In this document: positions 20,279 through 59,760 of the stretch, in pieces
How positions within the stretch are numbered: position 1 is the first letter of the stretch
How the letters are laid out: each line of letters begins with the position of its first letter
From: Siphonodentalium dalli
Lineage: Eukaryota; Mollusca; Scaphopoda; Gadilida; Siphonodentaliidae
Assembly: GCA_032622095.1 (NCBI GenBank)
Contig: CP136062.1
Span: forward strand, 226,872,578 to 226,936,577
DNA length: 64,000 bases
Direction of reading: 5' to 3'
The notes under the pieces: model-generated
What the model saw: the letters and a program-made list of their open reading frames with translations, nothing else
Databases searched by the model: none
What the model was told of the DNA's origin: nothing
Translations under genes and position numbers: made by a program

Positions 20279-23200
20279 AACAAACACATACACACACAGA
20301 TCTTTCAAAATATATAATAGACTAGAAGGTGACCCGACTTCGTCCGGGCTATTAAAAAACCAAATTTCAAGTCGATTGCTCCACCCGTTTCCTTGATCTG
20401 GTCTGCGCATGCGCGAAGCTGGTGTCGCACGTGCTCGGCGACCCGATAAAATTCGTATCCGGGGCAAGATACATCCACATACATTCACATACCAAATTTA
20501 AAGTCAATATCTCAACCCGTTTCCGAGATCTCGTCTGCGCATGCGCGAAGCTGGCGTCGCGCGTGCTCGGCGACCCGATAAAATTCGTATCCGGGGCAAG
20601 ATACATTCACATACCAAATTTCAAGTCGATAGCTACACCCGTTTCCGAGATATATAGCCCAATGTCATTTGCGGATACCTCGGCCGGTGATGAGTTAACG
20701 CGACACAGTCAAATGCATCGGCAGGGTGAGAGTTAACGTAATCTAACTTTATGACCTCTGACGACGTCATAGAAATTACGCATTGATTTTATCCCGATAA
20801 AAGCATTGTACCACTTGTACCTAATAATTGAGGCAGATAACTAAAACGGATACATACATATTATATATCGTTGGAAAGATGAAGCCACACAGATTCTAAC
20901 CGTGCAAATTATATGACTGGCAATTTATTATTCGCGCTATATCGAATCGATTTGTGAGCACCGAACTGAAATATATTAGCGCAAAAACGGCGTAAAAATA
21001 GATTTGACCTCCGAACGTGAAAAGTTGACCTCGCACGGACAAATAAATATGCCTATGTTCGTCTCCGGCCGAAAACACATCCAAATACCAAATTTCATCG
21101 GAATTGGCTTAGTCGTTTTGGAGTCCATCGATTTCAAACACACAAACAAACACACACACACACACACAGATCTTTCAAAATATATAATAGATAACTGATC
21201 TGCGAATGACATGTATCGCTACACTCCAGGTTCGCCCATTAAAGTTTACATATAGCACCATACATTCGTTGTAGTTTTTCCATAAAATATATACTTTATG
21301 TTCGGTCGAGGCACAAGCGAGTTAGAACATAAATGTTATTATTTCCATCTCATTTATGTGTGACAGTGGAGGACCTGGATTTAAGATGTCAGTAGGGGAC
21401 TACTCGTTGATTGGCGACGAACGAGGAGAACTGTCCATCGCCACAGCGTTTAGCAACCAACCGGATAGAGGTATTTATCGACGTAGTTTTTAATTTCCGC
21501 TCTGTTTGGATTTGGGTTGATTTTCGAAATAGTTTATTCTGGTCATTTTTGTTTGTGTGATATTCATAAATTCATAAAATTTCAAACGAGCATGAGAAAT
21601 GATGATAAATACCGTATACAATATGATTCGGTTGTTCTTTCTCCGAAGGGGGTGTTTAAAATTTTATATATTCACGTATATGATAGAGATAATCCTGACA
21701 AGATAATGGTGGTCGTTGAACGCATCTAACAATTATACCCGGTGTATTGCAATCAATATTCTATTCTATTTATATTCTATTCTAATGAACTAAGGATCTT
21801 TATCTAATGACAACTTTTCCAGAGAAAACTTTTGACAATTTCCTAGATTTTGAAAGGGAGAAAGTGACAATTTACATATAGAACAAGAAATGCAGCTTAA
21901 AGATGCCCACGTAATTTTGGAACTGTTATAAAACTCAGCATGATTTGGAACAGTAAGCACGGAAATAAAAAAACCTCATATGTATACTGATTAATATGAA
22001 ACAACATTCTCCAATCAATATCCAATGGGTAATAACAAGTGAACTTATCCAATAGGTAATACCAAGTGAATATATCCGATGGGTAATAACAAGTGAATAT
22101 ATCCAATGGGTAATAACAAGTGAATATATCCAATGGGTAATAACAAGTGAATTTATCCAATGGGTAATAACAAGTGAATTTATCCAATGGGTAATAACAA
22201 GTGAATTTATCCAATGGGTAATAACAAGTGAATTTATCCAATGGGTAATAACAAGTGAATTTATCCAATGGCTAATAACAAGTGAATATATCCAATGTGT
22301 AATAACAAGTGAATTTATCCAATGGGTAATAACAAGTGAATTTATCCAATGGGTAATAACAAGTGAATTTATCCAATTGGTAATAACAAGTGAATATATC
22401 CAATGGGTAATAAGAAGTGAATTTATCCAATGGGTAATAACAAGTGAATATATCCAATGGGTAATAACATGTGAATTTATCCAATGGGTAATAACAAGTG
22501 AATATATCCAATGTGTAATAACAAGTGAATTTATCCAATGGGTAATAACAAGTGAATTTATCCAATGGGTAATAACAAGTGAATTTATCCAATGGGTTAT
22601 AACAAGTGAATATATCCAATGGGTAATAACAAGTGAATTTATCCAATGGGTAATAACAAGTGAATATATCCAATGGGTAATAACAAGTGAATTTATCCAA
22701 TGGGTAATAACAAGTGAATTTATCCAATGGGTAATAACAAGTGAATTTATCCAATGGGTAATAACAAGTGAATTTATCCAATGGGTAATAACAAGTGAAT
22801 TTATCCAATGGGTAATAACAAGTGAATTTTCTTTTTAGCCAAAACATTCCGTGAACAAAGTAAAACAAAATAAAATTCCTTACATGTTAAATGCGTTTAA
22901 CTCTTTACTACATGTACATATATACGAGTAGTTTCCTTGGGAAATGTTCAGATTATAAGTTGAAGATTAAATTACTATTGAATATTTTAAATATTGTTGT
23001 TGTGTATATTGATGGTATGGGACCGTCTGATAGGATTGAGTACCATTAAACAAACATTTATTGAACATTCTATCTGAACATTTCCCACCAACGAATATGA
23101 ATCCGTCTGCATTTGCATGATCTATTCGTCTGTTCATAATTCATGAACATCCCTCCAGATAAATAATATACACTTTTCATGTCTACTTTTATAACTGAAC

Positions 23201-31312: not shown

Positions 31313-31535
31313 ATGTTTCGAGTAACAATTTTCTTGTGCGTTCCGTTTATTTTGGCGCAGGCCGCTGGTGATGTGATATCAGAACAGGCACCCATTACCA
31401 AGGCAAATCGGAACGCGTTTGGAAGGTATATTTACTATGGTCCAAACAATCAAGATTACAAACTCTACTCGTTTTGCGTGAAGAACAGAGGCTTGTGTGT
31501 GTCTGTCGCCGCTTCGAATTTCTGCACGACGTACC
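31313..31535 (+). CDS. Gene B exon 1: signal peptide and first half of Cys-rich module
   Basis: The ATG follows a TATA-like element. MFRVTIFLCVPFILAQAAG has a basic n-region, a hydrophobic core and an AQA-type cleavage site. The mature start has APITKANRN and IYYGPNNQDYKLYSFCVKN with three cysteines. The donor is TACC|GTAAGT (phase 1), completing an Arg codon with GA of exon 2. Confidence 0.85.
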
Positions 31536-37500: not shown

Positions 37501-40285
37501 CGAGTTTTTGCTAAGATCGGCCTATTATCAAACTCGGCTGATATCACCTCAAACTCGGCTGATATCGGTTTCTCAGGAGTTGTCGCCCTTATGACGTCAC
37601 GATGAGCAACGTTGTTTACATCGAAGCGTAATATCAAAGTTAGTGAGAAACAGGTCGATGTAAATGCTTTTCCAAGTTTTGGTTGCCGTTTTCCCTTCAA
37701 CATTAACTTTGATGGGGCAATAATTAACAACGTAAATGTATATTGCGCACCAACGAAGAACAGACACGAAGAGTAACCATATCAAGAGGAAAGTTATTAT
37801 AAAAGTTGTTATAACGTCGCATATAAAAATTATAATTGGTATATAAAGGTAACTTTCTGTTTAATCTGATTTATTCTTTTTTAAGGAGCATCTACGCGAA
37901 AGTACACGTAGGACCTCCTAATTGATCTTATAATGGCCCGGGTCATCTAATTAATAAGAAGGTTATTGTATGTGAGTATGCGGTGCCATACCTTGTATGT
38001 GAGTATGCGTTGCCATACCTTGTATGTGAGTATGCTTTGCCATACCTTGTATGTGACTAAACATCATGATATTAACAATGTATACTATAGGACTAAACAT
38101 GATGATATTAACAATGTATATTATAGGACTAAACATCATGATATTAACCTTCGGTCTCAGGCTGATATGAAGTTACCTCTGGCTGATATCTCGGCCGATA
38201 TCAATCAAACCAAGTAATAACCTATAACTAACGTCTTTTCCCATTTCTGTAATGTCGCGTTGGGGTATAATCACGGTGGGGAATCACGTGGTTTCGATTT
38301 GATGAGCATCATGCATTCAAAGTGGCCGAGGCGATCTAAAACGCGACCAGAATCGAGGAAAAAAGGTAATAAACTAAGATATAATATGACAGATTAAATA
38401 ATATTTTTACAGCTACGAGCAAATGCTATACTATATTTCAAACAAGCTGATACCTCATTTATGTCCAAATTCAAATGTGTTTGCTCTAACATTCTGACTA
38501 AAGTTGTCAGTCGAAGGATTTTCCAAGATGAATGGACTGGCGTATTTCACGCACCTCAGACTGGCAACTTTGGTCAGAATGTTATAGAAAACCACTAAGT
38601 ATTTCCGAACAAATAAGGTATCATCTTGTTTCGAAAATAAACAGCATATGCTCAAAACATTCAAACTGCTATGTTTGTGTCAGTTTCTCGTATATTATGT
38701 TTTTGTGCGTTTGTATATTTTGAATGCGTGGTACTCACCAACCTCGAAACCACACGATTCCCCACCGTGGTATTGACACATTCGGGTAATGACACACCCA
38801 CGAGGAAATCAAGCAGTCTATGAGCACATTGCCTGTGTGTCTACCCGAAATAGTTTGATTATTCACCTCCAACATATGAAATGTTCAGCGTTTACATTAA
38901 AACTGCTTCATTATCAAAACTCCAAAAGGTTTTACGGTAATGGCGCGTTTTGGTAATGACGAATTTAATTTCGCTGTACGGTCATATTCTGAATATTTTT
39001 CGGCCATGTAAAACAATTAGTTTATGACATTTTGTCGTTCATCTTGGGCATTATATAACATTAAGATATTGTGGGTGGGTGTAGTGACACACACTAAACT
39101 CACGATTCGATATTATTACCAAATGTTAATTATCGACAAAATTATCCCATGATATTACTCAAGCGATTTCGGAAAATTGATGATTTTTCAGATTTTCCTC
39201 TTAATTTACCAGCTTTGTTGACTTTTTCACAAATTTCATCGTATTTTGTGCAAAATTCACATCAGGTTGTGAATTTGTTGTTAGAAAACAAAACCGACGC
39301 CGAACACAAGCAATTAAATGCTGGTGTTTCGCCGTTTCGCGATAAATAAAAATATGTGTGTTGCTTCGTACATATAGATACATTATATAGATTAGATACA
39401 TGTGCAAGTAAATGCCCGTATTCTCAGTTACAAGTACATATATACGGCAGCTGTACATTAACAGCTCTTCTCTATACGGCAGCCGTACACTAACAGTACA
39501 TTAACAGCTCTTCTCTATACGACTGCTGCTATTTTTTTTAATAATATGAGCTAAGAACGCGTGATACGGGTTTGCTTGTTTACGGTAGAATCACCAGCTG
39601 ACGTCATAAATAAATTATATCTACGTTCAATTTGAAACTTGGAGATTCAATGCTGGGAATCGCACGATATCACGCCTACATCACAAGATTATCCAAAGAT
39701 ATCGGCAAACTATTATACCACCGAGATATACCCCAATAACTCATCTCAGCAAACTATTATACCACTGAGGAATACCCCAATAACTTATCTCAGATACTGC
39801 AAAAAACGGACATCGAATACATTTGTTTTTAAGATTTTAGTGTTTATTTCGCTACCTCGAAAAATGGTGGCAGCAAAAAATTACATATATAATTTGAGAC
39901 TATATATATATACTTCCCAGAAGATGAGGCCTAAGCAGAATGAGGTCCACAGAGGGTGAATGTGGTGATGCCAGTCCTCTGTGGACTGCAACTGTCAGAC
40001 TAAGGACAGTGAGAGCTTTCCGATGAATGGCAACAAGCCATATTTCCTACTAAATCCTGAAACGTTACCCATAATTCTGCTGTGGTTAAGGAGTCGATTA
40101 TTTAGGGCATTACTATACGTGACAGCGACCCATCGATCACATTTATTTTTTCTAGGAAGCACCTGCGAGTTTAAGAGTACGCGACCTGGTACATATTATC
40201 ATTACTTATATTCTAAACACTGCGCAACGTGGTGTAATGGGTGCGATGGCGATTATAAGAACAACTGTGGTCCCAACTCAATGTC

Positions 40286-40316
<31 letters not shown>

Positions 40317-43300
40317 GCAGCAACAACAACATCAACAACAGCAAAAACAACGACAACAGCAAAAACAACGACAACACCACCTACCATGTCAAAAAGTTAG
40401 TATTATATGTTAAACCATAAAGCATAGTTTTTAATATATATTTAATAGTAAATTCTCAATGACGAGTAATTCCTTTAACCCTTTACCCAACAAAGCGGCC
40501 AAAACCGGCCAAATAAAGCCTCAACAGCCTAAAATATCTTCGGTCTGTCTCAATAGAACCATACAAATATGGATATCATTGGAACCGGCTCCTTGACCAC
40601 ATTGTGATAGTTACAGTTATGCCCTGTGCCAATGCATTCTCTTATATATGCGAGTCGACCATAGGTCGTCTCGCATATATAAGAGAATGCATTGGCCTAA
40701 AAAAAATCTTTTTTTAACACTTTTTACCATTTTTTAAATAATTTTTAATGTGTTAAGCCAATGCATTCTCTTATATATGCGAGGCGACCTATGGTCGACT
40801 CGCATATATAAGAGAATGCATTGGCACAGGGCCCTTCTGTTGGGTAAAGGGTTAAGAAAGTCATGCAGTTTGTGTTGGTGGGAATAGTTTATGTAGTACG
40901 CAAGGTATGTAGAACGACCCGGCATGGTGTTAACAGTTTATATTTACATACTAAGTGTTGTCATCACTAAATCCAGCTTTCTGATTGGTCGGCGCCCACG
41001 TGGCTAGTTGCAGTTATTTCTCGGTGAATGCGCAACGCCTCATAACACCAAGCTCATAAAACCGTCGATACGTCATTGGGTTTGGAAAGACGAACGCGTA
41101 ATGTTTTGGGCGCATTTGGATTCGCGCAGGATTGACTTAATACATCATCGGGTTTCAATATGAAGAGAAATTGTTCCTATTAACTTTTGCCAAGGGTGCT
41201 ATTGGGTATTTTGGGCTGTTTTTGTCACGATACACTTTTCGATTTAAATACATTTACAAAAATGGCCTTTTCGCTAATTGTATATAAATATAAGGATTAA
41301 CTGTCATGTGGACTATTTTTATGGAGATGTAACCTTGAGGTAAGTGGTCATAACTTGTATGTAAAACCCTTCGGGTTTTACACAAGTTATGTCCACTTAC
41401 CTCACGGTTACATCTCCATAAAAACAGTCCACAAGACAGTTAATCCTTATATGTAGTATGTAAGGCATATAGAACGACCCCGGCATGGTGTTTATGTGAA
41501 GGGTCGTGTGAATAGTAATGAAACGATATGCATATTTAGTGCGTAACTCATGGTAACGACACGAATGCTTGATTAATCTGATTGATTGTTTTGGATGCGA
41601 GTAAACAGCGTTAATTATAACCTATGATAAGACATCGGCCTTTGATAATAAAGGCCTATTATATAATAATATATGTAATAAATGTTATACAATGCATGTC
41701 GCTGCAATTAAGCCGATAATTAATGATGTCACTTTAAAACCGAAATTAAGCCCGATACTATCGATAGGCCCTACATGTACATACATCTTTAAAGGGGTAC
41801 TGTACTCTAATGTTGTTGTTGGTTTCTATAGTCTCTGTGTCATAGAATAAGGTAACCAGATTTCCATTATTTGAAAGTCTGTTGAGTACGAAGTAATGTT
41901 ACGGATGGCAGCTTAGCCGGAATGCGAAAATACCAATTGTCGTTGTCGGGTAATTTTTGGACCGTTTTCCGTTGGACTGCACACTCCTATACTATTTTAC
42001 GATAGAACCCCAGCAGAATTCCTACTCGCCTACTATTATTTTTCTATTTATAGTAACAGACTCATGTCGCTCAATCGGATTGCCGCCTGAAGTCACGAAA
42101 CTATATATTGTACATTACTTGTTACAATATCGATATATACATGTATATATTTAGACTAATTGGTGAATATTTTCCGTTTTCAACGAAGATAAACAAGTTG
42201 ACTTCTGAATTTTCGCCAAAATGTCTTGCTATAATGACGTGTTTAGATAAATAACGCATGAATCACGAAGAGATGCTGTTAAATGTAATTAATAACATAG
42301 TCATGCTCACCTAACATCGTCAAAAGATTGCCGTAAATTGTAAGATCTGAGACGGATTTCCAAATTTCACGGTAAATGAAATGTGACAAAATCAGACATA
42401 GAAATTATGTGAGAAATTGACACAAATGTTCGATATAATATAATAGATAATGAATGTATTGTTGTTGACTATTCCAAAATAGTGGTCATCGAGTAAGAAT
42501 AGTCTACTCGCCAACGGCTTTTGGACTATTCCTTCTCTCAGACCACTATTTCGGTATAGTCCATTCCAAGCCATGCATTATCAATCTATATAATAGCATA
42601 GCAGTGTGCGGCAGCCAATCAGAAAGCGAGAAAGTCAATTGAGATAAATATTTATTAAATAATATGTGCATTACTAAACCTAATCCAGTCAAACTAAATA
42701 ATAAGACTCGCGAATAAAATACTACATTCATCGGGGTATAATTTTATGTAGCAATTCATCAGCGACTAAGGATATATACGTTCATACATTGGCAAGTTTG
42801 CACGGTATGATTTGCAGGCATTTCGAAGTAGAAAACGATATGGTGCCAGAATATGAACGGAAACACGCGTATAAAATGCATCTGTACCACCGCTAACTGT
42901 AATTGCGAAGTAAAATTTCTATAGTTCAACCTGTGGCGATGCTACCGTAATTTGCCTTTAAATAACATGTAAATATCTCGCAAGAATTAATCATACAGGT
43001 ATATTAGATGGCACATGCCAGTAGCACCGTTGTACGTGGAACTACATAAATTATACTTCTCATATCGTTCGCTTTGGTAAAGATGCATGTTACGTGCACA
43101 TTTCCGTTCATATTCTGGCATCACATCGGTTTCTATGACAAAATGCCTGGAAAACATATAGTGCAAACTTGCCAGCGTATGAACGTACCCTAAGGGTGGA
43201 TACACACATGCATGTAATCTCTGTAATTATCGTGTATTTGGCGTTTTACATGGATCATACAGACCATGTAATATGTGTCCGTTGACAACCCAATCATTGC

Positions 43301-46300
43301 GGCTATGTTTGACCGCAGTGAGCCAAGCTCTGAGGGTGCAGAGAACCGTTGACTGAACGTAGTCGTCAGGCCGCTTAGAATAACTGTTCGCGCGATAACC
43401 CAAATGTTGGACTTTCTGTTTAAATCATTGTCAGTCTTCTCTTGATTTTTATACCGATGATGGCCCCAGGAGTTCCCCAACCCAGGGGCTATGATCCACA
43501 CCATGGGGGGCAATATTATCAGGATTTCCTGTCGCAGGGGCTAAATATGACCCCCGACTTGGGGCTATATATGATCCCGAAAGCTACCAGACGGGTTGAC
43601 TAACTCTGCTCTATTTAAGTAAAACATATATTGTACCTTCTTGCCCAGATTATTCCGACCGATACATTCAACTAAGTCACTTAGCGATTTGAAGCTTTTG
43701 AAACCCAACGCCAAGCAAGTATCGAAAATGTTCTATATCAAGCCTGTGTACATCAGATGTGTCGCTTCTGGTGACGTGCATTAATAAAATGTCAGATATC
43801 ACACCGACTTAACTAATTTCCACATCCGTAAGAGAAGACATGTTTTGGTCTGGCCTTAAATGTCCTGATAGCAGAGAGTTTGACTTCGCTTATGACTACT
43901 CACTTGTCTGGCCTGTTAACAATGAACCGCTCGCGCGCAGGTGATTAATGTTGTCAATTATTGGTGTGGCCATGTAAAATACATGTATTTTACATACAGA
44001 GATTACATGCATGTGTGTATCCATCATAAGGGTTCGTTCATACAATCGCAATTGTGCCAGATATTACTATGAAGGCATTTCGGTATAGAAAGCTACAATG
44101 TGCCAGAAACCGAATGCGAAAATGCATATAAAATGAATCTGTACCACAGCTAACTAACTACATGAGAAGTAAAAAATATATAGTGCCACTAGTAGCGATG
44201 TTATCGAAACTTGCATGTAAGTAGCATGCAATGACCTCGCTAGAATAAATTATACAATTATTTTAAGGGTCGTATTTTAAGGCAATTTTGTTAGCACCAT
44301 TATGTGTGGAACTAACAAAATGTTACTCCTCATGTCGCTAGTAAATAGTCATTTTATATGCATGTTCCCGTTAATATTCTGGAATTGTAGGGTTTTTTCT
44401 ATGAGAAAATTCCTGCAAAAAATGCCGTGCAAACTTGACAGTGTATACTCGTACATTGCAAGGTGCAATGTTAATCACTCGCTAACTGCACTTTCAGAAT
44501 GTAAGTACTCTGAGTACGAGGGAGTTGCTCCTCGTATCGGTGGCGGTGCAAGCTACGATCTACAGTGTCATGATCCATGGCTGGCAGTACTGAGAAATCC
44601 AGATAGCTCGCTTCCAATTTGCGCAGGAGTAATTGTGAAGTACAACAAGATCGTTACCACGACAGAGTGTATGTCAAGATTGTGAGTACTGTGTTAACGA
44701 TGTCTACACTCCACAGGGTGTATGTCAAGACTGTGAGTACTGTGTTAACGATGTATATACACTCCACAGAGTGTATGTCAATACTGTGAGTACTGTGTTA
44801 ACGATGTATATACACTCCACAGAGTGTATGTCAATACTGTGAGTACTGTGTTAACGATGTATATACACTCCACAGAGTGTATGTCAAGACTGTGAGAACC
44901 GTGTTAACGATGTCTACACTCCACAGAGTGTATGTCAAGACTGTGAGTACTGTGTTACCCATGTCTACACTCCACAGAGTGTATGTCAAGACTGTGAGAA
45001 CTGTGTTAACGATGTATATACACTCCACAGAGTGTATGTCAAGATTGTGGGTACTGTGTTAACGATGTCTACACTCCACAGAGTGTATGTCAAGATTGTG
45101 AGTACTGTGTTAACGATGTCTACACCCCACAGAGTGTATGTCAAGATTGTGAGTACTGTGTTAACGATGTCTACACTCCACAGAGTGTATGTCAATACTG
45201 TGAGTACTGTGTTAACGATGTCTACACTCCACATAGTGTATGTCAAGACTGTGAGTACTGTGTTAACGAGGTCTACACTCCACAGAGTGTATGTCAATAC
45301 TGTGAGTACTGTGTTAACGATGTATATACACTCCACAGAGTGTACGTCAAGACTGTGAGAACTGTGTTAACGATGTCTATACTCCACAGAGTGTATGTCA
45401 AGATTGTGAGTACAGTGTTAACGGTGTCTACACACCACAGAGTGTATGTCAAGACTGTGAGAACTGTGTTAACGATGTCTACACTCCACAGAGTGTATGT
45501 CAAGATTGTGAGTACTGTGTTAACGATGTCTACACCCCACAGGGTGTATGTCAAGACTGTGAGTACTGTGTTAACGATGTCTACACCCCATAGAGTGTAT
45601 GTCAAGATTGTGAGTACTGTGTTAACGATGTCTACACTCCACAGAGTGTATGTCAAGATTGTGAGCACTGTGTTAACGACGTCTACACCCCACAGAGTGT
45701 ATGTCAAGATTGTGAGTTCTGTGTTAACGATGTCTACACTCCACAGAGTGTATGTCAAGATTGTGAGTACTGTGTTAACGATGTCTACACTCCACAGGTG
45801 TATGTCATGAATGTGAGTACTGTGTTAACGATGTCTACACCCCACAGAGTGTATGTCAAGATTGTGAGTACTGTGTTAACGATGTCTACACTCCACAGAG
45901 TGTATGTCATGATTGTGAGTACTGTGTTAACGATGTCTACACTCCACAGAGTGTATGTCAAGACTGTGAGTACTGTGTTAACGATGTCTACACTCCACAG
46001 AGTGTATGTCAAGATTGTGAGTACTGTGTTAACGATGTCTACACTCCACAGAGTGTATGTCAAGACTGTGAGTACTGTGTTAACGATGTCTACACTCCAC
46101 AGAGTGAATATCAAGACTGTGAGTACTGTGTTACCCATGTCTACACTCCACAGAGTGTATGTCAAGATTGTGAGTACTGTGTTAACGATGTCTACACTCC
46201 ACAGAGTGCATATCAAGACTGTGAGTACTGTGTTACCCATGTCTACACTCCACAGAGCGTATGTCAAGACTGTGAGTACTGTGTTAACGATGTCTACACT

Positions 46301-49300
46301 CCACAGAGTGTATGTCAAGATTGTGAGTACTGTGTTAACGATGTCTACACTACACAGAGTGTATGTCAAGACTGTGGGAACTGTGTTAACGATGTCTACA
46401 CTCCACAGAGTGTATTTCAAGATTGTGAGTACTGTGTTAACGATGTCTACACTCCACAGAGTGTATGTCAATACTGTGAGTACTGTGTTAACGATGTCTA
46501 CACTCCACAGAGTGTATGTCAAGATTGTGAGTACTGTGTTAACGATGTCTACACTCCACAGAGTGTATGTCAATACTGTGAGTACTGTGTTAACGATGTC
46601 TACACTACACAGAGTGTATGTCAAGATTGTGAGTACTGTGTTAACGATGTATACACCCCACAGAGTGTATGTCAACATTGTCAGTACTGTGTTAACGATG
46701 TCTACACTCCACATAGTGTATGTCAAGACTGTGAGTACTGTGTTAACGATGTCTACACTCCACAGAGTGTGTGTCAAGACTGTGAGTACTGTGTTACCCA
46801 TGTCAACACTCCACAGAGTGTATGTCAACATTGTGAGTACAGTGTTAACGGTGTCTACACACCACAGAGTGTATGTCAAGACTGTGAGAACTGTGTTAAC
46901 GATGTCTACACTCCACAGAGTGTATGTCAAGACTGTAAGTACTGTGTTAACGATGTCTACACTCCACAGAGTGTATGCCAAGATTGTGAGTACTGTGTTA
47001 ACGATGTCTACACTCCACAGAGTGTATGTCAAGACTGTGAGTACTGTGTTAACGATGTCTACACTCCACAGAGTGAATATCAAGACTGTGAGTACTGTGT
47101 TACCCATGTCTACACTCCACAGAGCGTATGTCAAGACTGTGAGTACTGTGTTAACGATGTCTACACTCCACAGAGTGTATGTCAAGATTGTGAGTACTGT
47201 GTTAACGATGTCTACACTACACAGAGTGTATGTCAAGACTGTGGGAACTGTGTTAACGATGTCTACACTCCACAGAGTGTATTTCAAGATTGTGAGTACT
47301 GTGTTAACGATGTCTACACTCCACAGAGTGTATGTCAATACTGTGAGTACTGTGTTAACGATGTCTACACTCCACAGAGTATGTCAAGATTGTGAGTACT
47401 GTGTTAACGATGTCTACACTCCACAGAGTGTATGTCAATACTGTGAGTACTGTGTTAACGATGTCTACACTACACAGAGTGTATGTCAAGATTGTGAGTA
47501 CTGTGTTAACGATATCTACACCCCACAGAGTGTATGTCAAGACTGTGAGTACTGTGTTAACGATGTATATACACTCCACAGAGTGTATGTCAATACTGTG
47601 AGTACTGTGTTAACGATGTATATACACTCCACAGAGTGTATGTCAATACTGTGAGTACTGTGTTAACGATGTATATACACTCCACAGAGTGTATGTTAAG
47701 ACTGTGAGAACCGTGTTAACGATGTCTACACTCCACAGAGTGTATGTCAAGACTGTGAGTACTGTGTTACCCATGTCTACACTCCACAGAGTGTATGTCA
47801 AGACTGTGAGAACTGTGTTAACGATGTATATACACTCCACAGAGTGTATGTCAAGATTGTGGGTACTGTGTTAACGATGTCTACACTCCACAGAGTGTAT
47901 GTCAAGATTGTGAGTACTGTGTTAACGATGTCTACACCCCACAGAGTGTATGTCAAGATTGTGAGTACTGTGTTAACGATGTCTACACTCCACAGAGTGT
48001 ATGTCAATACTGTGAGTACTGTGTTAACGATGTCTACACTCCACATAGTGTATGTCAAGACTGTGAGTACTGTGTTAACGAGGTCTACACTCCACAGAGT
48101 GTATGTCAATACTGTGAGTACTGTGTTAACGATGTATATACACTCCACAGAGTGTACGTCAAGACTGTGAGAACTGTGTTAACGATGTCTATACTCCACA
48201 GAGTGTATGTCAAGATTGTGAGTACAGTGTTAACGGTGTCTACACACCACAGAGTGTATGTCAAGACTGTGAGAACTGTGTTAACGATGTCTACACTCCA
48301 CAGAGTGTATGTCAAGATTGTGAGTACTGTGTTAACGATGTCTACACCCCACAGGGTGTATGTCAAGACTGTGAGTACTGTGTTAACGATGTCTACACCC
48401 CATAGAGTGTATGTCAAGATTGTGAGTACTGTGTTAACGATGTCTACACTCCACAGAGTGTATGTCAAGATTGTGAGTACTGTGTTAACGACGTCTACAC
48501 CCCACAGAGTGTATGTCAAGATTGTGAGTTCTGTGTTAACGATGTCTACACTCCACAGAGTGTATGTCAAGATTGTGAGTACTGTGTTAACGATGTCTAC
48601 ACTCCACAGGTGTATGTCATGAATGTGAGTACTGTGTTAACGATGTCTACACCCCACAGAGTGTATGTCAAGATTGTGAGTACTGTGTTAACGATGTCTA
48701 CACTCCACAGAGTGTATGTCATGATTGTGAGTACTGTGTTAACGATGTCTACACTCCACAGAGTGTATGTCAAGACTGTGAGTACTGTGTTAACGATGTC
48801 TACACTCCACAGAGTGTATGTCAAGATTGTGAGTACTGTGTTAACGATGTCTACACTCCACAGAGTGTATGTCAAGACTGTGAGTACTGTGTTAACGATG
48901 TCTACACTCCACAGAGTGAATATCAAGACTGTGAGTACTGTGTTACCCATGTCTACACTCCACAGAGTGTATGTCAAGATTGTGAGTACTGTGTTAACGA
49001 TGTCTACACTCCACAGAGTGCATATCAAGACTGTGAGTACTGTGTTACCCATGTCTACACTCCACAGAGCGTATGTCAAGACTGTGAGTACTGTGTTAAC
49101 GATGTCTACACTCCACAGAGTGTATGTCAAGATTGTGAGTACTGTGTTAACGATGTCTACACTACACAGAGTGTATGTCAAGACTGTGGGAACTGTGTTA
49201 ACGATGTCTACACTCCACAGAGTGTATTTCAAGATTGTGAGTACTGTGTTAACGATGTCTACACTCCACAGAGTGTATGTCAATACTGTGAGTACTGTGT

Positions 49301-52300
49301 TAACGATGTCTACACTCCACAGAGTGTATGTCAAGATTGTGAGTACTGTGTTAACGATGTCTACACTCCACAGAGTGTATGTCAATACTGTGAGTACTGT
49401 GTTAACGATGTCTACACTACACAGAGTGTATGTCAAGATTGTGAGTACTGTGTTAACGATGTATACACCCCACAGAGTGTATGTCAACATTGTCAGTACT
49501 GTGTTAACGATGTCTACACTCCACATAGTGTATGTCAAGACTGTGAGTACTGTGTTAACGATGTCTACACTCCACAGAGTGTGTGTCAAGACTGTGAGTA
49601 CTGTGTTACCCATGTCAACACTCCACAGAGTGTATGTCAACATTGTGAGTACAGTGTTAACGGTGTCTACACACCACAGAGTGTATGTCAAGACTGTGAG
49701 AACTGTGTTAACGATGTCTACACTCCACAGAGTGTATGTCAAGACTGTAAGTACTGTGTTAACGATGTCTACACTCCACAGAGTGTATGCCAAGATTGTG
49801 AGTACTGTGTTAACGATGTCTACACTCCACAGAGTGTATGTCAAGACTGTGAGTACTGTGTTAACGATGTCTACACTCCACAGAGTGAATATCAAGACTG
49901 TGAGTACTGTGTTACCCATGTCTACACTCCACAGAGCGTATGTCAAGACTGTGAGTACTGTGTTAACGATGTCTACACTCCACAGAGTGTATGTCAAGAT
50001 TGTGAGTACTGTGTTAACGATGTCTACACTACACAGAGTGTATGTCAAGACTGTGGGAACTGTGTTAACGATGTCTACACTCCACAGAGTGTATTTCAAG
50101 ATTGTGAGTACTGTGTTAACGATGTCTACACTCCACAGAGTGTATGTCAATACTGTGAGTACTGTGTTAACGATGTCTACACTCCACAGAGTATGTCAAG
50201 ATTGTGAGTACTGTGTTAACGATGTCTACACTCCACAGAGTGTATGTCAATACTGTGAGTACTGTGTTAACGATGTCTACACTACACAGAGTGTATGTCA
50301 AGATTGTGAGTACTGTGTTAACGATATCTACACCCCACAGAGTGTATGTCAACATTGTGAGTACTGTGTTAACGATGTCTACACTCCACATAGTGTATGT
50401 CAAGACTGTGAGTACTGTGTTAACGATGTCTACACTCCACAGAGTGTGTGTCAAGATTGTGAGTACTGTGTTAACGATGTCTACACTCCACAGGGTGTAT
50501 GTCAAGACTGTGAGTACTGTGTTAACGATGTCTACACTCCACAGAGTGTATATCAAGACTGTGAGTACTGTGTTACCCATGTCTACACTCCACAGAGTGT
50601 ATGTCAACATTGTGAGTACTGTGTTAACGATGTCTACACCCCACAGAGTGTATGTCAATATTGTGAGTACTGTGTTAACGATGTCTACACTCCACAGAGT
50701 GTATGTCAATACTTTGAGTATTGTGTTAACGATGTCTACACTCCACAGAGTGTATGTCAAGATTGTGAGTACTGTGTTAGCGATATCTACACTCCACAGA
50801 GTGTATGTCAAGATTGTGAGTACAGTGTTAACGGTGTCTACACACCACAGAGTGTATGTCAAGATTGTGAGTTCTGTGTTAACGATGTCTATACTAAATG
50901 GAATATCCCATTCAGTTCTAAATTAAAAAATTGGAATGGTCTATTATTCATCTGGAGGGGGTTCATGAAAAATAAGCAGACGACAGACAGTAAACGTACA
51001 GAATGAGTTCTATTTATTGGTGGAATAATTGTAGGTAATATGTTCAACGGTTGTCTGTTGAACTTATTATTAGAACAATTCGTAAGGGATAACTACTCAT
51101 TAACCCTTTCAGTGCCAGGGCCGATCTCATCGGCCCTAATTGACGGTCTGTAAAATCGGGCCTAAAAAAATAAAAAAAATAAAAAAGATTTTTTTTTTTT
51201 TTTGGTTGAATTTTTGTTGGGTATGCTTAAGCATGCTATAGCGAATTTAAAAACAAACTGGATAAAACCTTAGGGGCATGTTATAACTCAAAACTATCAC
51301 CAAGAATTCATAGTAATACTTTTGATGCCCATGAAAAACGTAAGATCCCCTGGCACTAAACCTACAAAATAAGTCTGTTAAAGAATATAAGAAAAAAATA
51401 TTAAAATTGTAAAAAATTGTAAAAATTAATAACAAATGATGAAAAATAGTTACGCCAATGCATTCTCTTATATATGCGAGGCGACCTATGGTCGACTCGC
51501 ATATATAAGAGAATGCATTGGCACAGGGTATATGGGTTGATACAAAAATCGGACTTGGCACTGAAAGGGTTATCGTATGAGGGAGGTAAAGTGGTAACAT
51601 TTGGATTGGGAATTCAGTGTTCATTTTCGGGGAAAGTTTACTAAAACGTTACTCAGAGTAGGTGACCATATCATATCTTAATGGAAATGTTGAATGCTTA
51701 TCTAGTGACAACGCGGAGCACAATACTGATTTTCGACCCAGTTTGGTTATTATTAGGAAGTAGGTTAAATGTTTGTTAACAAATATTTCCATCAAAATTC
51801 AAATGTCACAAAAAAAAAAAAAAAATCCACTTCGCGTTGTCATTAAACATATGTTAACACTTTCCATAAGATATGAAGCGGTCTTCTGTTCTTTGTAAGT
51901 ATTGAGTAATCTTTTCCCGAAAATTAACACTGAATTCTCCATTCAAATGTTACCACTTTATCTCCATCTTAAAATCATATAAAAGCAAATTTTTAAACAT
52001 AAATCTATGAGCTCTACAACCTATACATAACCAACAAAAAAGCTAAACAGGAAACTTGTATATAGAGGATCAGCAACGAGTTATGTTGGGATATAAGACT
52101 TTATGAAACGAGTTTGATAAACGAGTCGCAGATGATTTGTAAATCAAATTTATCAAACGAGTTTCATAAAATCTTATACCCCAACATAACCAGTTGAAGA
52201 TCATGTATATCCCCAATTTCCCTCAATAAGATTTGCTTTTGTGCCTATTTTAGTGTAAACAATATTGATTTGAACAAAAGAACAGAACATCACATTGACA

Positions 52301-55300: not shown

Positions 55301-58300
55301 TCAGAAGGTGCCCAAAGAGAAATACAAAATAGCTGAAATCATAAAAATATTTCCCCGTTTGGCTACTAGAATGCAACAGAATTCAAACTAAGAGCTACAG
55401 TGTTATTCCCCTTCCATTGAAAATAATAGAGTTTACAATACAGACCGGTTCAAAATTGAGCATATAACACACATCGGTACCTGGACAAAACAACATGTTC
55501 CCAGTTTATTTGTTTTGGAGCTTCCTCTTCAAATTGGTATATGATATGGCATGTATTTTATATAATGTGATCTGTGGGTTCATGGTATATGATATGGCAT
55601 GTATTTTATATAATGTGATCTGTGGGTTCGATAATTAAGTGGGTCTTCAACGTTAAAATATTTCTATTTCAGTTCAGCCGTTGGCCTTGGATCAGAGTTT
55701 GTGGTGACACTGGGAGAATACGCTTGGTCAATCGACGACGAATCTAGCGAGCAGAAAATCACTGTGATAAGCACGGACGAGGATGCAAGTACGTTATTAA
55801 AACGTCTTCTTTATTTTTAATGTAATGATGGTAATATATATCGACCTAGACCGACTCAGTACGACAATTTATTTTAGACCGTGTACCAGGGTTGGGGTAA
55901 TCGTAATCAGTAATTGTAATCAAAGTAATCGATTAAATTTTTTTGAGTAATCACCTGTAATCAGTAATCATGACATTTTTTTATTACAAGTAATCGTAAT
56001 CGATTACTTTCAAATGTACCTGTAATCATGATTACATTTTGATTACATTTTGATTACTTTTACTAAAATATCCATAATAGCTATTGGATACTCATATTCT
56101 CACAATGTAGCACTGTGGAGTGTGCACAGATACAAACATCATATCAGAAAGGTTGTACAATTTTTTTCATGTTGTGCACTGTGTATAACTATTGCACTGG
56201 ACACAGATAACACACACTTGGGCAATATCATACGGCTTCTGTGCCAATACGGGTACATATAACTCTTAAGGCTATCAGAACGGTTTGATTATTTATTTAC
56301 AACAAAGTCAATAATGTTCAATCATCGGCATCTGGGTTTCTCTTCCTGTCGTCTGCTTGGTTTAGGGTCTTCTTCCGTCTTCATAGGTTGGGTGTGTCTG
56401 CTTGTCTTCTACTCGGTTGAGTTCCGGTTGAGTTTATCTTCCTGTCGTCTGCTCTTCTTCTTCCGTCGGCGCATCAGTGGGACGTTGTTAGAAATACAAG
56501 AGCATAATGTTTACCTTGTATTTTCGTCCATTGCTCCACACTGCTCTTCTACGCGTCCGAGGCTTCTTGGTGATCGCTGGGGTGGTTTGTTAGAACTGGT
56601 TATCGGTGTCGGCTTTCTTCTTACTAAATACCAGAGGGCGTTAATGACAGCCCGGTGCATCTTCACGGCGAATCGGTTCCAGGCGTACCTAGGGTAATCG
56701 GGCGATCGTCATCTTCCCATGCGTCCTATAGACTCTTCTCCTTATCCATCACGCTGCGTTAGGTTTCGGTAGCTTTTCTAGGCGAGACATCTGGTCTCGC
56801 TAATCCTCAAGATCGTTCTGTTTACTCCCCAAATCATTTCCCTATGTATGTGTCGGGGATGGTTATTGCGTGGACGTCCGCTAATTCGTTTTGGTGCCCA
56901 GTACTTTGCGATCTAGATGTGGTCAACAGCGGCGCTGATATGTGTGGTAATCGAGCGCCCCTCTGACTTAGAGATTGCCTGTCTTCTTCCCGGGTTGAAA
57001 GTTATGTCCCTGGGGTTGTCTTGGCACACTTCCCCGTCGTCGCCCAATGTTTTGAGTTTTTCAAAGAAATGTAACTCTAACATTCCCGTTATTTAGTAAA
57101 ATATTACCTTTTCTAAATAAAGGGCACACCAAAAGAATGACACCACAGAGAGACACGTGTACATTAAGGATCAGGGAACATCAATTGACTTGACCAGAAC
57201 AACTTGTTTACCATGAAAATAACCAACTTAAAATTATTTGCAGCAAATTGTTTTGGATTGTCTTACCATGTCACCTCTTTTCTTTTGCTGCTAATTTTAG
57301 TGGAAGAAAATTCATAATTATTTGATAATTTAGACCGAACACACGTTTGTATGAATCAGGAAACAAAAACTTTTGCAGTGGCCCCAATACACTCTTTCCA
57401 GACGCATAATACACCCCACCCGACCCAAAATGGCCGCCGTCCAGAGGGGTTCAAATATGTCACATGTGCCATATCTCGGCCCCTGGACCAATTTAGGTCA
57501 AACAAAGGGTGTTGTAGGGTGGCCCCAATATATTTTAAATATTCACCCCTCATAACCCACCCCGATTCAAAATGGCCGCCGTCCAGAGGGGTTCATATAG
57601 GGCACATATGCCATTTCTGGGCCCCTTGGCCGATTTAGTCAAACAATGGGTGTTGTAGGGTGACCCTCCCCCAAGACATTCTAAATATTCACGTCACACA
57701 CGCTCCTTGGAAGACATTCCGTTCTCAAGCAGTGGGTGACAAATCTCCATGTCTCCATCGACAACGGGCGATAACTGTATAATGTCTCACTCGACAGCGG
57801 GCGATAACTGTATAATGTCTCCCTCGATAGCGGGCGATAACTGTACCGTGTCTCCCTTGACAGCGGACGATAACTGTATAATATCTCCACCGACAGAGGG
57901 CGATAACTGTATAATGTCTCCGTCGACAGTGGGCGATAACTGTCTAATTATCTCCATCGACAGCGGACGACAACTCTATAATTATATATTCACCAAATAG
58001 TTTACACGCATATACGTTGTACAGTTTAAACTCCTTACACAATGCGCTGCATTAGCTGATCGCAAAAAAAATAAAAGAAGATAAAATAAACAATATAAAT
58101 CATTAGGGTTTGTCATGTTTAAGATCTTAAGAAATTATTTCGCTGAACGCTTTTTTGCCTACAGATGCAGGTCTTGTGACTGTCACTCTGAAGCAATCTA
58201 TGATATTCAACAAGTGTGTGGCACCAGCCTGCTTCGAATTCCAGGACAGCACGATTACAGTGGACAACTCGAGTTGTAAGATCGTGGGGTGGGGAGAGAC

Positions 58301-59760
58301 AAGTCAGGGTAAGTGAATAGGCCTTACATATATTAATTTTGAAGTGTTCACGCTGCTATGAAAATATTTTTGGCCAATTGTTTTGGCCAATTCCGATTTG
58401 TTTTGGCCAAATTGAAAAAAAAACCTTTGGTAAAATTAAATCCTCATTTTCTGGTCTCACAATTAATGAATATTTTTTTTATTTAACATCTAACGTTCTA
58501 TATAATTATGTCCATACCTTCTGATACCGTGTCTAGACTTCTTTAATCACACCATTGTTACCTGACAATATAGGCCTACCACTTAAGAAATGGATGTTGA
58601 TTTGTTTGCGTTCCATATAGTATGGATGCAAGTTGGTCTGACATTTTCGCGTTCCACACATAAAAATATCAGACCAACTTGCATCCATACTCTATGGAAC
58701 GCAACAAAATCAACATCCATTACTTATATTTACACTCAACCGAGTCAACTGGCAGATTAAACGAGTTTTAAGCGCCCATTTCCAACGTTATTATCGTGGC
58801 TCGGTGCAAGTTGCGTCTACACAAAAATGGATGGAAGTTGGGGTCAGCGCGCGACGTCATGTGACGTACTTTTGACCAACCAACGTCCTGCATTCATGTT
58901 CCACAATACGAATCCATGTGTGAGTGTAAATATTACCCACTAGCTACCACCATTCCGCCTTATGTCAGACAATGGATTCATTAGTGTAAATTAGAATTTA
59001 GCAGCGTCATGTCATGAACAATATATGCTATATGTGTACATTCTATGGTTAATTCACTCAACTGATATAGATAGACTCGCGCTGTTTTGGGACGGGGAAG
59101 CGATTACCGCACGAGACCGTTTCGCGGAATGATACCACAAGAGCCGCGGGGTATCCTTCCGCGAAACTCTCGAGTGCGATAATCAGTTACCTGTCCCAAA
59201 ACTTTGCGGATCTATTTTTTATTACATACCCCAATCACAAACGTAATTGTTTATTATGAGAAGTTTTTTTTCGATGGAATTCATTGTTTTGTAACAATGT
59301 TGGCATCACAAAATAAGACATTCTTTCACGTCGTCTGTAGCTACAACAACACGTCAGGATCGCTCTAAGGCTTTCTGTAGAAAATTACAACACAATTGAA
59401 AGCCATTACTTATAGTGAGAATACAACAATTTCCATCTGTATAAGTTCCATATATATGTTACCTGTTTCAGGATTTACTCCTGAGATTATGTATGTCGGC
59501 GATGTGGATGTATAAGTTCCATATATATGTTACCTGTTTCAGGATTTACTCCTGAGATTATGTATGTCGGCAATGTGGATGTACCTATATACATGTTATC
59601 TGTTTCAGGATTTACTTCTGAGATTATGTATGTCGGCGATGTGGATGTTGTTGATGACTGCCGTGATTTACTGGCGATTTCCAATATGGTAGTCGGCTCC
59701 ACAGGCGAACAGAATATCGGTTGTACTTCCCCGTCCAGGTCATCCTCTGCAGCATGCGAA
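31313..59760 (+). CDS. Gene B: secreted serine protease homolog (pseudoprotease), exons 1-6, 3' incomplete
   Basis: The model joins 31313-31535, 40156-40395, 44498-44681, 55673-55788, 58165-58308 and 59609-59760: 1059 nt, or 353 codons. All introns are GT-AG with phases 1,1,2,1,1,0, matching gene A. It encodes a signal peptide, an 8-Cys module, a Thr-rich linker and an S1 domain with PRIGGG, DPWLAVL, GWGE and S1-type cysteines. His57 is Glu (TTTEC) and the Asp102 position aligns with Gly. The exon carrying residue 195 lies beyond the window. It is secreted by inference from the signal peptide. Function unknown; catalysis is unlikely. Confidence 0.86.
32628..34656. mobile_element. Harbinger-like MITE, copy A
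   Basis: The inverted ends GGGTGGATACACACATGCAT...ATGCATGTGTGTATCCACCC are flanked by TTA on both sides. It is colinear with copy B except for a foldback insertion (33856-34013: mirrored ATGAACGGCGGGTTCAA arms) and a TTTCG-rich stretch up to 34215. It has no coding capacity. Confidence 0.75.
34660..36377. mobile_element. Harbinger-like MITE, copy B
   Basis: It is directly adjacent to copy A, sharing a single TTA (34657-34659), and followed by TTA (36378-36380). It is near-identical to A over its length, so the pair arose by a tandem duplication or an unequal exchange. Confidence 0.75.
36449..36580. repeat. Palindromic repeat
   Basis: The arms CCAGTAAATTAGGTCT and AGACCTAATTTACTGG, plus outer CTCGCCCCGAGTTTA / TAAACTCGGGACGA, form a long imperfect hairpin. 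Confidence 0.75.
36625..37015. mobile_element. TTAA-flanked MITE, family CCCTTTACCC, copy P2
   Basis: TTAA lies on both sides (36621-36624 and 37016-37019). It carries two copies of the palindrome CCAATGCATTCTCTTATATA and complement. An exact 43-bp direct duplication follows at about 37028-37117. Confidence 0.85.
37118..38265. other. Intron 1 of gene B, mostly unique
   Basis: No gene recognised. 37966-38062 holds three 27-bp units of TATGTGAGTATGCGTTGCCA plus TACCTTG. 38063-38150 holds three units related to GACTAAACATCATGATATTA. GATATC-rich short repeats occur near 37540 and 38160. Confidence 0.6.
38269..38770. mobile_element. Inverted-repeat MITE (TCACGGTGGGGAATC family)
   Basis: The ends TCACGGTGGGGAATCACGTG and CACACGATTCCCCACCGTG are inverted. 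An internal pair, CATTCTGACTAAAGTTG and CAACTTTGGTCAGAATG, forms a second hairpin. A diverged relative follows exon 6 of gene B (59769). 38771-40155 contains no supported gene; imperfect duplications lie at 39455-39520 and 39700-39790. Confidence 0.72.
40156..40395 (+). CDS. Gene B exon 2: second half of Cys-rich module and Thr-rich linker
   Basis: The acceptor is TTTTTTCTAG. It encodes (R)STCEFKSTRPGTYYHYLY, then SKHCATWCNGCDGDYKNNCG, then a Thr-rich run with Ala, Ser and Lys ending PPTMSK(K). With exon 1 it makes eight cysteines. The Thr tract, made by (ACA)n repeats, is a likely site of O-glycosylation and of length polymorphism. The donor is AAAAA|GTTAGT (phase 1). Confidence 0.85.
40479..40851. 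mobile_element. TTAA-flanked MITE, family CCCTTTACCC, copy P3
   Basis: TTAA lies on both sides (40475-40478 and 40852-40855) with the same termini as P1 and P2. It carries two palindromes. It lies 80 bp after exon 2. Confidence 0.85.
41285..41457. repeat. Long hairpin of about 170 bp
   Basis: The arms AAGGATTAACTGTCATGTGG and CCACAAGACAGTTAATCCTT continue inward almost perfectly to a centre at AAACCCTTCGGGTTT. Related direct repeats (GTAGAACGACCCGGCATGG-like) lie on either side near 40910 and 41478, so it may be the core of an insertion. Confidence 0.8.
41793..41962. mobile_element. Truncated TTAA-type MITE (AGGGGTACTG family)
   Basis: It starts after TTAA (41789-41792) and matches the reverse complement of the right end of the 5949-6530 element; the partner end is absent. 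The rest up to 42772 has an inverted repeat at 42460-42575 (ACTATTCCAAAATAGTGGTC and its mirror) and no gene. Confidence 0.6.
42773..43190. mobile_element. Inverted-repeat MITE (TATACGTTCATAC family), copy 1
   Basis: The ends ACGTTCATACATTGGCAAGT and ACTTGCCAGCGTATGAACGT are inverted, with a second inner pair around GTGCCAGAATATGAACGGAA. A diverged relative occupies about 44033-44457, just before exon 3. Confidence 0.68.
43194..44026. mobile_element. Harbinger-like MITE, copy C
   Basis: Same family as 32628-36377, in a shorter version. Inverted ends GGGTGGATACACACATGCAT are flanked by TAA on both sides (43191-43193 and 44027-44029). Confidence 0.75.
44033..44457. mobile_element. Inverted-repeat MITE (TATACGTTCATAC family), copy 2
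   Basis: Diverged from 42773-43190: GTTCGTTCATACAATCGCAA at the left and GTGCAAACTTGACAGTGTAT at the right, with inner GTGCCAGA / TCTGGAAT-type pairs. Confidence 0.5.
44498..44681 (+). CDS. Gene B exon 3: start of S1 domain, His57 replaced
   Basis: The acceptor is CTGCACTTTCAG. It encodes (K)CKYSEYEGVAPRIGGG, then ASYDLQCHDPWLAVLRNP, ending VTTTECMSR(F). PRIGGG is the activation-type N-terminus and TTTEC replaces TAAHC, so catalytic His57 is Glu, as in gene A. It is 184 nt, equal to gene A exon 3. The donor is AAGATT|GTGAGT (phase 2). The final 19 exonic bases are the first part of the minisatellite unit. Confidence 0.88.
44663..50892. repeat. 51-bp junction minisatellite of gene B exon 3
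   Basis: About 120 copies of a unit made of the exon tail (CAGAGTGTATGTCAAGATT), its donor GTGAGTACTG, then TGTTAACGATGTCTACACTC and CA. A few units read GATGTATATACACTCC and are longer. Because 51 is a multiple of three, long ORFs run on both strands; these are repeat artefacts. Each unit also has an acceptor-like CTCCACAG before the exon-like piece. Confidence 0.95.
44750..50342. repeat. 2.8-kb higher-order duplication inside the 51-bp array
   Basis: About 44750-47530 and 47562-50342 are repeated with a constant offset of 2812 bp. I found only two base differences (44884-44890 region and 45666). Smaller blocks (for example near 46000-46480 and 47010-47340) are also repeated within each copy. 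Confidence 0.88.
51104..51569. mobile_element. TTAA-type MITE, CCCTTTCAGTGCC family
   Basis: The left TTAA (51100-51103) is followed by CCCTTTCAGTGCCAGGG. The right end, TTGGCACTGAAAGGG, is followed by TTAT, a mutated TTAA. It carries the same 66-bp CCAATGCATTCTCTTATATA palindrome as P1-P3, although the outer sequence differs. A related partial copy spans about 53556-53935. Confidence 0.75.
51583..51967. mobile_element. Inverted-repeat MITE
   Basis: GGTAAAGTGGTAACATTTGG...GAATTCAGTGTT and AACACTGAATTC...CAAATGTTACCACTTTA are inverted ends. A poly-A tract lies at 51810-51825. Non-coding. Confidence 0.65.
52075..52200. repeat. Palindromic repeat
   Basis: The arms TTATGTTGGGATATAAGACT and AATCTTATACCCCAACATAA form an imperfect hairpin around AAACGAGTTTGATAAACGAG. 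From 52201 to 53555 no gene or element is supported; a G homopolymer occurs near 53331-53345. Confidence 0.7.
53556..53935. mobile_element. Partial TTAA-type MITE related to 51104-51569
   Basis: It contains the CCAATGCATTCTCTTATATA palindrome and, after CTTTCAGTGCCAGACTT, the internal sequence of the 51104 element in inverted order. Ends are eroded. Confidence 0.6.
54355..54765. repeat. 18-bp minisatellite in intron 3 of gene B
   Basis: About twenty copies of ACCCCCAATAACACACAG with variants (CTATAACACACATACCCC). The spurious ORFs on both strands follow from the period of 18. 54766-55672 has no gene; a 46-bp direct duplication lies at about 55535-55628, shortly before exon 4. Confidence 0.92.
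55673..55788 (+). CDS. Gene B exon 4: S1 domain strand region
   Basis: The acceptor is TTTCTATTTCAG. It encodes (F)SAVGLGSEFVVTLGEY, then AWSIDDESSEQKITVISTDEDA. VVTLGEY is the classic S1 strand found after the His57 loop. A second AG five bases inside the exon would break the phase. The donor is TGCAA|GTACGT (phase 1). Confidence 0.85.
55880..56050. repeat. GTAATC-rich cryptic repeat
   Basis: Irregular GTAATCGTAATCAGTAAT and GATTACATTTTGATTAC motifs, partly palindromic. 56051-57395 contains a CT-rich stretch (56330-56700) and an ORF of 127 codons that I cannot relate to any protein. Confidence 0.7.
57396..57670. repeat. Diverged tandem duplication of about 145 bp
   Basis: Two copies share AAAATGGCCGCCGTCCAGAG and GTCAAACAAAGGGTGTTGTA. 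Confidence 0.8.
57740..57985. repeat. 33-bp minisatellite
   Basis: About seven units of TCTCCATCGACAGCGGGCGA plus TAACTGTATAATG lie in intron 4 of gene B. 57986-58164 is plain intron. Confidence 0.9.
58165..58308 (+). CDS. Gene B exon 5: S1 domain with GWGE motif
   Basis: The acceptor is TTTTGCCTACAG. It encodes (N)AGLVTVTLKQSMIFNK, then CVAPACFEFQDSTITVD, then NSSCKIVGWGETSQ(G). AGLVTV aligns with NDIALL of active proteases, leaving Gly at the Asp102 position. The donor GTCAGG|GTAAGT is strong and, unlike gene A exon 5, is not tandemly copied. Confidence 0.88.
58583..58935. mobile_element. Palindromic MITE, second copy
   Basis: Close relative of 25862-26226: AGAAATGGATGTTGATTTG and AAATCAACATCCATTACTT arms, the same tail with GCGCGACGTCATGTGACGTA. 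Confidence 0.78.
59078..59212. repeat. Imperfect palindrome
   Basis: GTTTTGGGACGGGGAA and CTGTCCCAAAAC arms, with an inner GAGACCGTTTCGCGGAA / TTCCGCGAAACTCTC pair. 58936-59077 and 59213-59440 hold nothing else recognised. Confidence 0.72.
59446..59640 (+). repeat. Triplicated acceptor and exon start of gene B exon 6
   Basis: Three copies of an intron end TATATGTTACCTGTTTCAG plus exon start GATTTACTCCTGAGATTATG, with acceptor G at 59471, 59542 and 59608. The first leads to a stop (GTA TAA). The second reads in frame through the third and would add 22 residues. Confidence 0.92.
59609..59760 (+). CDS. Gene B exon 6: S1 domain up to Cys191
   Basis: It encodes (G)FTSEIMYVGDVDVVDD, then CRDLLAISNMVVGSTGEQ, then NIGCTSPSRSSSAACE. 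It aligns with gene A exon 6 (MLVGDVNVVRDC; NVGCTSAAS; AAAC). I chose the third acceptor because it gives no extra residues relative to A; the second acceptor (start 59543) is an in-frame alternative. The donor GCGAA|GTGAGT is phase 0. The next exon, with the residue-195 motif, is not in the window. Confidence 0.86.

Follow-up and report, generated by a model that had tools for sequence, protein, structure and literature searches.

In the 64,000-nucleotide stretch of the Siphonodentalium dalli genome analyzed here (the window), a trypsin-like gene that we call gene B carries at its exon 3 donor a 51-bp minisatellite of 122 units, each of which repeats the end of the exon and the beginning of intron 3. 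Minisatellite-like arrays whose units span an exon-intron boundary are known from amphioxus as mirages, and the gene B array is a mirage of this known kind, unusual in its length and in the richness of its setting; four of the six paralogs in the gene cluster (genes 0, A, B, D, E and F) have an array at the homologous donor. We conclude that the gene B array is probably a tolerated mirage, duplicated at the junction and spliced out from its first donor, so that use of the later donors is not needed. The recurrence of mirages at homologous junctions may be what is new.

Tandem Repeats Finder (TRF) places the gene B array at 44662-50895 on the forward strand (period 51, 122.0 copies, 92% match, score 10545), in agreement with the sequence-only reading, an earlier interpretation of this DNA that had described about 120 units of 51 bp at 44663-50892, anchored at the exon 3 donor in phase 2. 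The anchor and the phase hold as well (donor GTGAGT at 44682). Among the 121 spacings between the 122 donor-anchored units, 107 measure 51 bp, ten 53 bp, two 50 bp and two 49 bp. Each unit consists of the last 20 nucleotides (nt) of exon 3, one more than the 19 exonic bases claimed, together with 31 nt from the start of intron 3; the GTGAGT donor described for the unit is intact in 100 of 122 (GTGAGA stands in 10 and GTGGGA in 4). The acceptor-like sequence that had also been ascribed to the unit does occur (C[T/C]CCACAG, 101 times in the array), yet it forms no element of its own. Since CCACGACAG directly followed by AGTGTATGTCAAGATT already stands in exon 3, the acceptor-like ACAG arises where the end of the intron piece meets the beginning of the copied exon piece. 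Two candidate readings were rejected here, namely CTCCACAG as a designed acceptor (it is the beginning of the copied exon piece) and a series of tandem micro-exons; CACAG lies 16 nt before the next GTGAGT, and the span from GTGAGT through the next CACAG is 35 nt, which we judged too short for an ordinary intron. Of the 11.0 kb of intron 3 the array takes up about 6.2 kb, so that intron growth, one of the functions suggested earlier, is its plain consequence.

The donors of the gene B units vary no less than other intron bases (minor-base frequency 3.7% in the donor, 3.0% elsewhere in the intron piece and 5.1% among the exonic bases), and we therefore see no sign of selection on them. The same holds for the exon 3 arrays of genes D and F, in which the unit donors are kept no better than their surroundings (GTAAGT in 9 of 20 units in gene D, with two further units out of register, and GTGAGT in 9 of 18 in gene F); at the exon 6 donor of gene E, GTAAGT is kept in 18 of 23. 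Reading past the first donor leads to a stop within 1-12 nt in seven of eight cases (45 nt on at gene A exon 6), which makes a coding role of the extra donors unlikely. Donor redundancy that would be useful to the protein, as the sequence-only reading had proposed, thus finds no support in the reading frames or in the upkeep of the donors in genes B, D and F.

A mirage would be born when a short segment at an exon-intron boundary is tandemly duplicated. Growth of the gene B array has involved both duplication of the unit and copying of a 55-unit block. If splicing proceeds from the 5'-most donor, all later units would be removed together with the intron, and array growth through unequal exchange or slippage, probably at little cost, would be nearly neutral for that reason. 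On the donor side a duplication would be tolerated, since it leaves the original exon and donor unbroken upstream; on the acceptor side it would be more likely to change the exon, a possible reason for the bias toward donors described below. New arrays appear to have been born repeatedly at the donors of exons 3 and 6 in this protease-like family, junctions that would then be more prone or more tolerant than most.

We examined this recurrence in the 2.23-Gb genome assembly (9 contigs), placing exons by translation, paralog comparison and splice sites, from DNA alone. The six cluster genes lie on contig C2, where their exon 3 copies span no more than 267 kb. Searching the whole genome with exon 3 gave 14 scored candidates, eight of them members at E <= 0.01 (the six on C2 and two remote ones, R1 and R2). 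Junctions were scanned with a 30-nt query (20 exonic and 10 intronic nt) against up to 12 kb of the adjacent intron, supplemented by TRF on the loci; the scan took in the cluster junctions apart from some with an unclear boundary or missing sequence (three exons of gene F, namely 1, 2 and 4; the donor of exon 2 in genes 0, D and E; and that of exon 4 in gene 0). Duplicated donors number 8 of 31 (exon 3 of A, B, D and F, exon 5 of A, and exon 6 of 0, A and E), against 1 of 36 acceptors (exon 6 of B; Fisher p 0.009). By exon, the donor counts are 0/5 for exon 1, 0/2 for exon 2, 4/6 for exon 3, 0/4 for exon 4, 1/6 for exon 5 and 3/6 for exon 6, and the exon 3 donors of R1 and R2 were not duplicated in the same scan (0/2). 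The scan scores of three positives are modest (22/30 for A exon 3, 21/30 for D exon 3 and 22/30 for E exon 6, compared with 19-24, and twice 30, against the 12-kb introns of other genes, which include homologous exons); we counted these junctions all the same, since each is covered or adjoined by a TRF array or by many neighboring copies. The earlier picture of two arrays, in genes A and B, was therefore an undercount, and three further junction-spanning repeats that it did not mention lie in the window itself (the donors of gene A exons 5 and 6 and the acceptor of gene B exon 6). It had proposed looking for such repeats at the same junction of other family members, and in the cluster they are not rare.

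The background against which these counts are set matters, because the size of the donor excess shifts widely between a 5% and a 20% rate of local duplication. Arrays with a period of at least 10 make up 17.7% of the cluster and 25% of the window, and 17% of random 30-mers from the cluster (n = 6000) have a copy (at least 21/30) no farther than 500 nt away on a given side, a rate that is 13.5% (n = 5704) when the junction arrays are set aside and about 4% at array edges. The chance of at least 8 duplicated donors among 25 is 2e-5 at a 5% background, 0.007 at 12%, 0.026 at 15% and 0.11 at 20%; without the exon 3 donors of A and B, that of at least 6 among 23 is 8e-4 at 5% and 0.12 at 15%. As an external comparison we used trypsin genes of the same genome, found by a PF00089 profile search (part of the 150 matches). 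The homologous donor carries an array in 1 of 32 of them (0/20, 1/2 and 0/10 in three sets), compared with the 4 of 6 cluster exon 3 donors (p 0.001; 2 of 4, p 0.027, without A and B). The sole positive (L074, C2:183170915-183171375, near C2:183171345) has a 52-bp array, with about 7 units in the stretch examined and an ordinary AHC motif, and five control donors of the exon 5 type (L069-L073) showed no array in scans of 145-171 nt. Over all donors the comparison is 8 of 29 in the cluster with 1 of 39 in the controls, R1 and R2 included (p 0.0036; 6 of 27, p 0.016, without the exon 3 donors of A and B). These p-values are rough, because several controls are near-copies of each other and the stretches scanned were shorter (267-498 nt for the 32 donors, with L053 scanned with 23 nt and the donor uncertain in L082 and L085). 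The contrast at exon 3 speaks for a shared predisposition, the first of the two options that the sequence-only reading had offered, or for a shared tolerance; for the second option, a function, donor redundancy at the protein level finds no support.

Several observations weigh against simple tolerance with splicing from the first donor. In the exon 3 array of gene A, GTGAGT is kept in all 9 donor units while other intron positions vary by 6.7%, in what is a small set; use of the first donor is something we infer from the DNA sequence; the clustering at exons 3 and 6 (7 of 12 donors, compared with 1 of 17 other cluster donors, p 0.003 for a grouping chosen after seeing the data) goes beyond what tolerance alone accounts for; and measured against the raw local duplication rate of 13.5-17%, the excess of duplicated donors is modest (8 of 25 at 15%). 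A tentative extension, which we regard as more doubtful than not, is that certain splice donors are hotspots of tandem duplication: the homologous exon 3 donor, which follows the trypsin AHC position, would have been hit independently in four paralogs and in the unrelated L074 because a local sequence or transcription-linked feature, beyond tolerance, targets the junction.

Coincidence in a minisatellite-rich genome, where arrays arise everywhere, those that touch donors are tolerated and no junction is special, is possible at somewhat long odds. The coverage of the cluster and window by arrays, the copy rate of random 30-mers and the unremarkable probabilities at 15% and 20% all fit it; at an edge-type background of 4%, however, 8 of 25 would be very unlikely, and neither the difference from other trypsin donors nor that between exons 3 and 6 and the remaining cluster donors is what it would lead us to expect.

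A single exon 3 array inherited by the paralogs, turned over beyond recognition and lost in genes 0 and E, is unlikely. The exonic part of the unit differs (10 nt in A, 20 in B, 12 in D and about 28-32 in F), as do the periods, and the exon pieces closely match their own exons (10/10 in A, 19/20 in B, 11/12 in D and 26/28 in F), so that the arrays look young. In the first 300 nt of intron 3 no clear alignment was found among the six paralogs; the low pairwise p-values (A-B 0.02, A-F 0.01 and B-F 0.005) we attribute to the repeated exon pieces. The six-gene tree is compatible with one origin, but the array label needs two changes on it, with no fork strongly supported, and turnover can be fast, as the block copy in gene B illustrates. 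Because the unit breakpoints and intron parts differ, separate births are favored, and the cluster arrays at exon 3 appear, as far as sequence comparison supports it, to be independent and recurrent. The earlier statement that the gene A array is distinct from that of gene B stands on all points compared (period, sequence and breakpoint, with 48-, 105- and 32-bp units in gene A), and the comparison of the two arrays that it had called for makes their derivation from one ancestral array the less likely history.

The mirage at the exon 6 donor of gene E (C2:227006683-227008602, L036 and L037; 23 units of 80 or 90-91 bp) appears to be older. Its first unit matches the array at 37 of 40 intronic positions and at 26 of 42 exonic ones; this exon match indicates that the exon and its array have parted, as expected if an array evolves as intron. 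The idea that this array preserves an earlier version of the exon was left unsupported: its exon piece is no closer to the paralog exons than is gene E's own exon (22 vs 23 of 42 to gene D).

The length of the gene B array itself raises a different question. A 2812-bp block of 55 units, which the sequence-only reading had missed, has been copied within the array, with 5 mismatches across 44662-47540 and identity in 52 of 66 pairs of units 55 apart. This block copy is recent and nearly doubled the array, in the genome or in the assembly, so the exact copy number is possibly unstable or partly an assembly effect. That the assembler duplicated the block is suggested by the high identity and the few mismatches, yet we think it improbable: the blocks do carry mismatches, minisatellites often show block copies of recent date, and a single block would still leave about 67 units. 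Elsewhere in the genome, a search for the unit that skips very common words found one match beyond the gene B array, on another chromosome (L076:250-351, C1:270325039-270325140); it is 102 bp long, exactly two units, is identical to window positions 45852-45953 at 100 of 102 sites, and looks like a copied or circle-derived minisatellite fragment.

Finally, selection for the array is very unlikely. On this view many strong 5' splice sites would recruit U1, shield the long intron against early ends, or adjust output through splicing to a stop codon. It is favored by GTGAGT being intact in most gene B units and in all nine counted in gene A, by the recurrence of exon 3 arrays in four of six paralogs and by the use of repeat donors in human IFI6 (PMC4526556). 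Against it, the gene B donor is kept no better than the rest of its unit, no more than half of the exon 3 units in D and in F hold theirs, an exon 3 array is missing from genes 0 and E and an exon 6 donor array from B, D and F, and the later donors would add a stop.

Mirages, a kind of repeat that the sequence-only reading did not mention, were described in amphioxus as boundary-spanning minisatellite-like repeats in Adh3 and in the globin genes BflGb6 and BflGb9, with units of 10-72 bp in Adh3 and 150-160 bp in the globins and with both boundaries hit; reverse transcription polymerase chain reaction suggested normal splicing, length and somatic instability were reported, and a role in intron gain was proposed (PMC3087553). 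Mirages are also described in TnC and PGBD5 (PMC3902484). In the portions of these papers available to us, the amphioxus mirages share with gene B a unit that crosses the boundary and includes the splice signal, and a unit length in a similar range (10-160 bp in amphioxus; 51 bp in gene B, 22-142 bp by TRF in the other arrays and 80-91 bp at gene E exon 6). With the cluster as a whole they share hits at both boundaries and internal homogenization with the boundary unit left apart (PMC3087553, PMC3902484); gene B shows such homogenization in its block copy, and exclusion of the boundary unit was seen only at gene E exon 6. They differ in that BflGb6 has 3-6 units, far fewer than the 122 of gene B, and in that the cluster is donor-biased and several of its paralogs carry arrays that differ from one another at a shared junction; recurrence at one junction in sister genes is not described in those portions.

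Three further systems bear a partial likeness, again as described in the available parts of the articles. In human IFI6 (6-16) a minisatellite supplies donors, and use of the repeat donors results in transcript variants (PMC4526556); the likeness is a tandem repeat at a donor in which every unit is a potential donor, and the difference is that in the present family the later donors run into stops in seven of eight cases, which argues against coding use. In intron gain as described for potato RdRp and in the AGGT model, tandem duplication across an intron-exon boundary copies the splice signals, and one duplication makes a new intron (PMC4974935), unlike the present case, in which an existing intron grew and no new one was seen. 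Earthworm metallothionein genes have minisatellites in intron 1, and boundary spanning is not mentioned in the available text (PMC12783039). Our literature search, which covered few subscription papers, found no paper in which paralogs carry different mirages at homologous junctions. Paralogs with different mirages, young and old, at shared junctions would allow the study of birth, first-donor use and hotspots, and for annotation they carry a warning, since about 100 donors in the arrays look perfect and long open frames in them are spurious.

The host genes encode proteins with an R-I-G-G type start and IVGWG and GDxGGP regions. The joined exons of genes A and B match the trypsin profile PF00089 (38.9 and 29.6 bits, cut-off 20.6), in a test on partial proteins that lack exons 4 and 7 and, for gene A, include 11 wrong-frame residues. 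The motif at His57 reads TSIEC in gene 0, TTKEC in A, D and F, TTTEC in B and TTKAC in E, and that at Ser195 reads GDIGGP in 0, GDAGGP in A and D, GDVGGP in B and F and GDTGGP in E; with the catalytic His and Ser lost, the six genes are catalytically dead protease homologues. This likeness to serine protease homologues concerns the host genes (a trypsin fold by sequence), not the array. Their features in the window are collected in Table 1.

Table 1. Exons and junction-spanning repeats of genes A and B, in window positions unless a contig is given
Feature	Position	Strand	Remarks
Gene A exon 1	upstream of window		exons 2-7 inside
Gene A exon 2	6794..7018	+	
Gene A exon 3	8093..8276	+	
Gene A exon 3 donor mirage	8267..10871	+	48-bp, then 105-bp, then mostly 32-bp units; 9 counted with exon piece and donor
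Gene A exon 4	21367..21470	+	
Gene A exon 5	24260..24415	+	
Gene A exon 5 donor mirage	24374..24671	+	50-bp unit x ~6; 42 nt exonic and 8 nt intronic
Gene A exon 6	25416..25570	+	
Gene A exon 6 donor mirage	25558..25624	+	22-bp unit x 3
Gene A exon 7	27023..27184	+	GDAGGP replaces GDSGGP; end counted by hand from translation
Gene B exon 1	31313..31535	+	signal-peptide-like start (putative)
Gene B exon 2	40156..40395	+	Cys-rich piece and Thr-rich linker
Gene B exon 3	44498..44681	+	phase 2 donor GTGAGT at 44682
Gene B exon 3 donor mirage	44662..50895	+	51-bp unit x 122
Gene B exon 4	55673..55788	+	
Gene B exon 5	58165..58308	+	
Gene B exon 6 acceptor mirage	59438..59648	+	71-bp unit x 3
Gene B exon 6	59609..59760	+	
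Gene B exon 7	C2:226943944		beyond window

In the acceptor mirage of gene B exon 6 (59438-59648), the second acceptor copy lies 66 nt upstream of the third, and because the frame is stop-free into exon 6 this copy could lengthen the protein. About 120 bp beyond the end of the gene A array lies a degenerate telomere-like GGTTAG array (10993-11216; 37 copies, 72% match), and the same intron 3 holds an 836-amino-acid open frame (13751-16261), presumably a reverse transcriptase. A 27-bp array of 30 copies at 22019-22829, about 0.55 kb past the gene A exon 4 donor, touches no junction. Profile searches of the genome for mollusc haemocyanin (PF14830) and annelid linker (PF16915) gave no match, a result that is not to be read as absence. 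Elsewhere on C2, at C2:149826753-150603706, nearly identical open frames for protein kinases stand in tandem, and this cluster accounts for about 95 of the 135 PF00069 matches listed.

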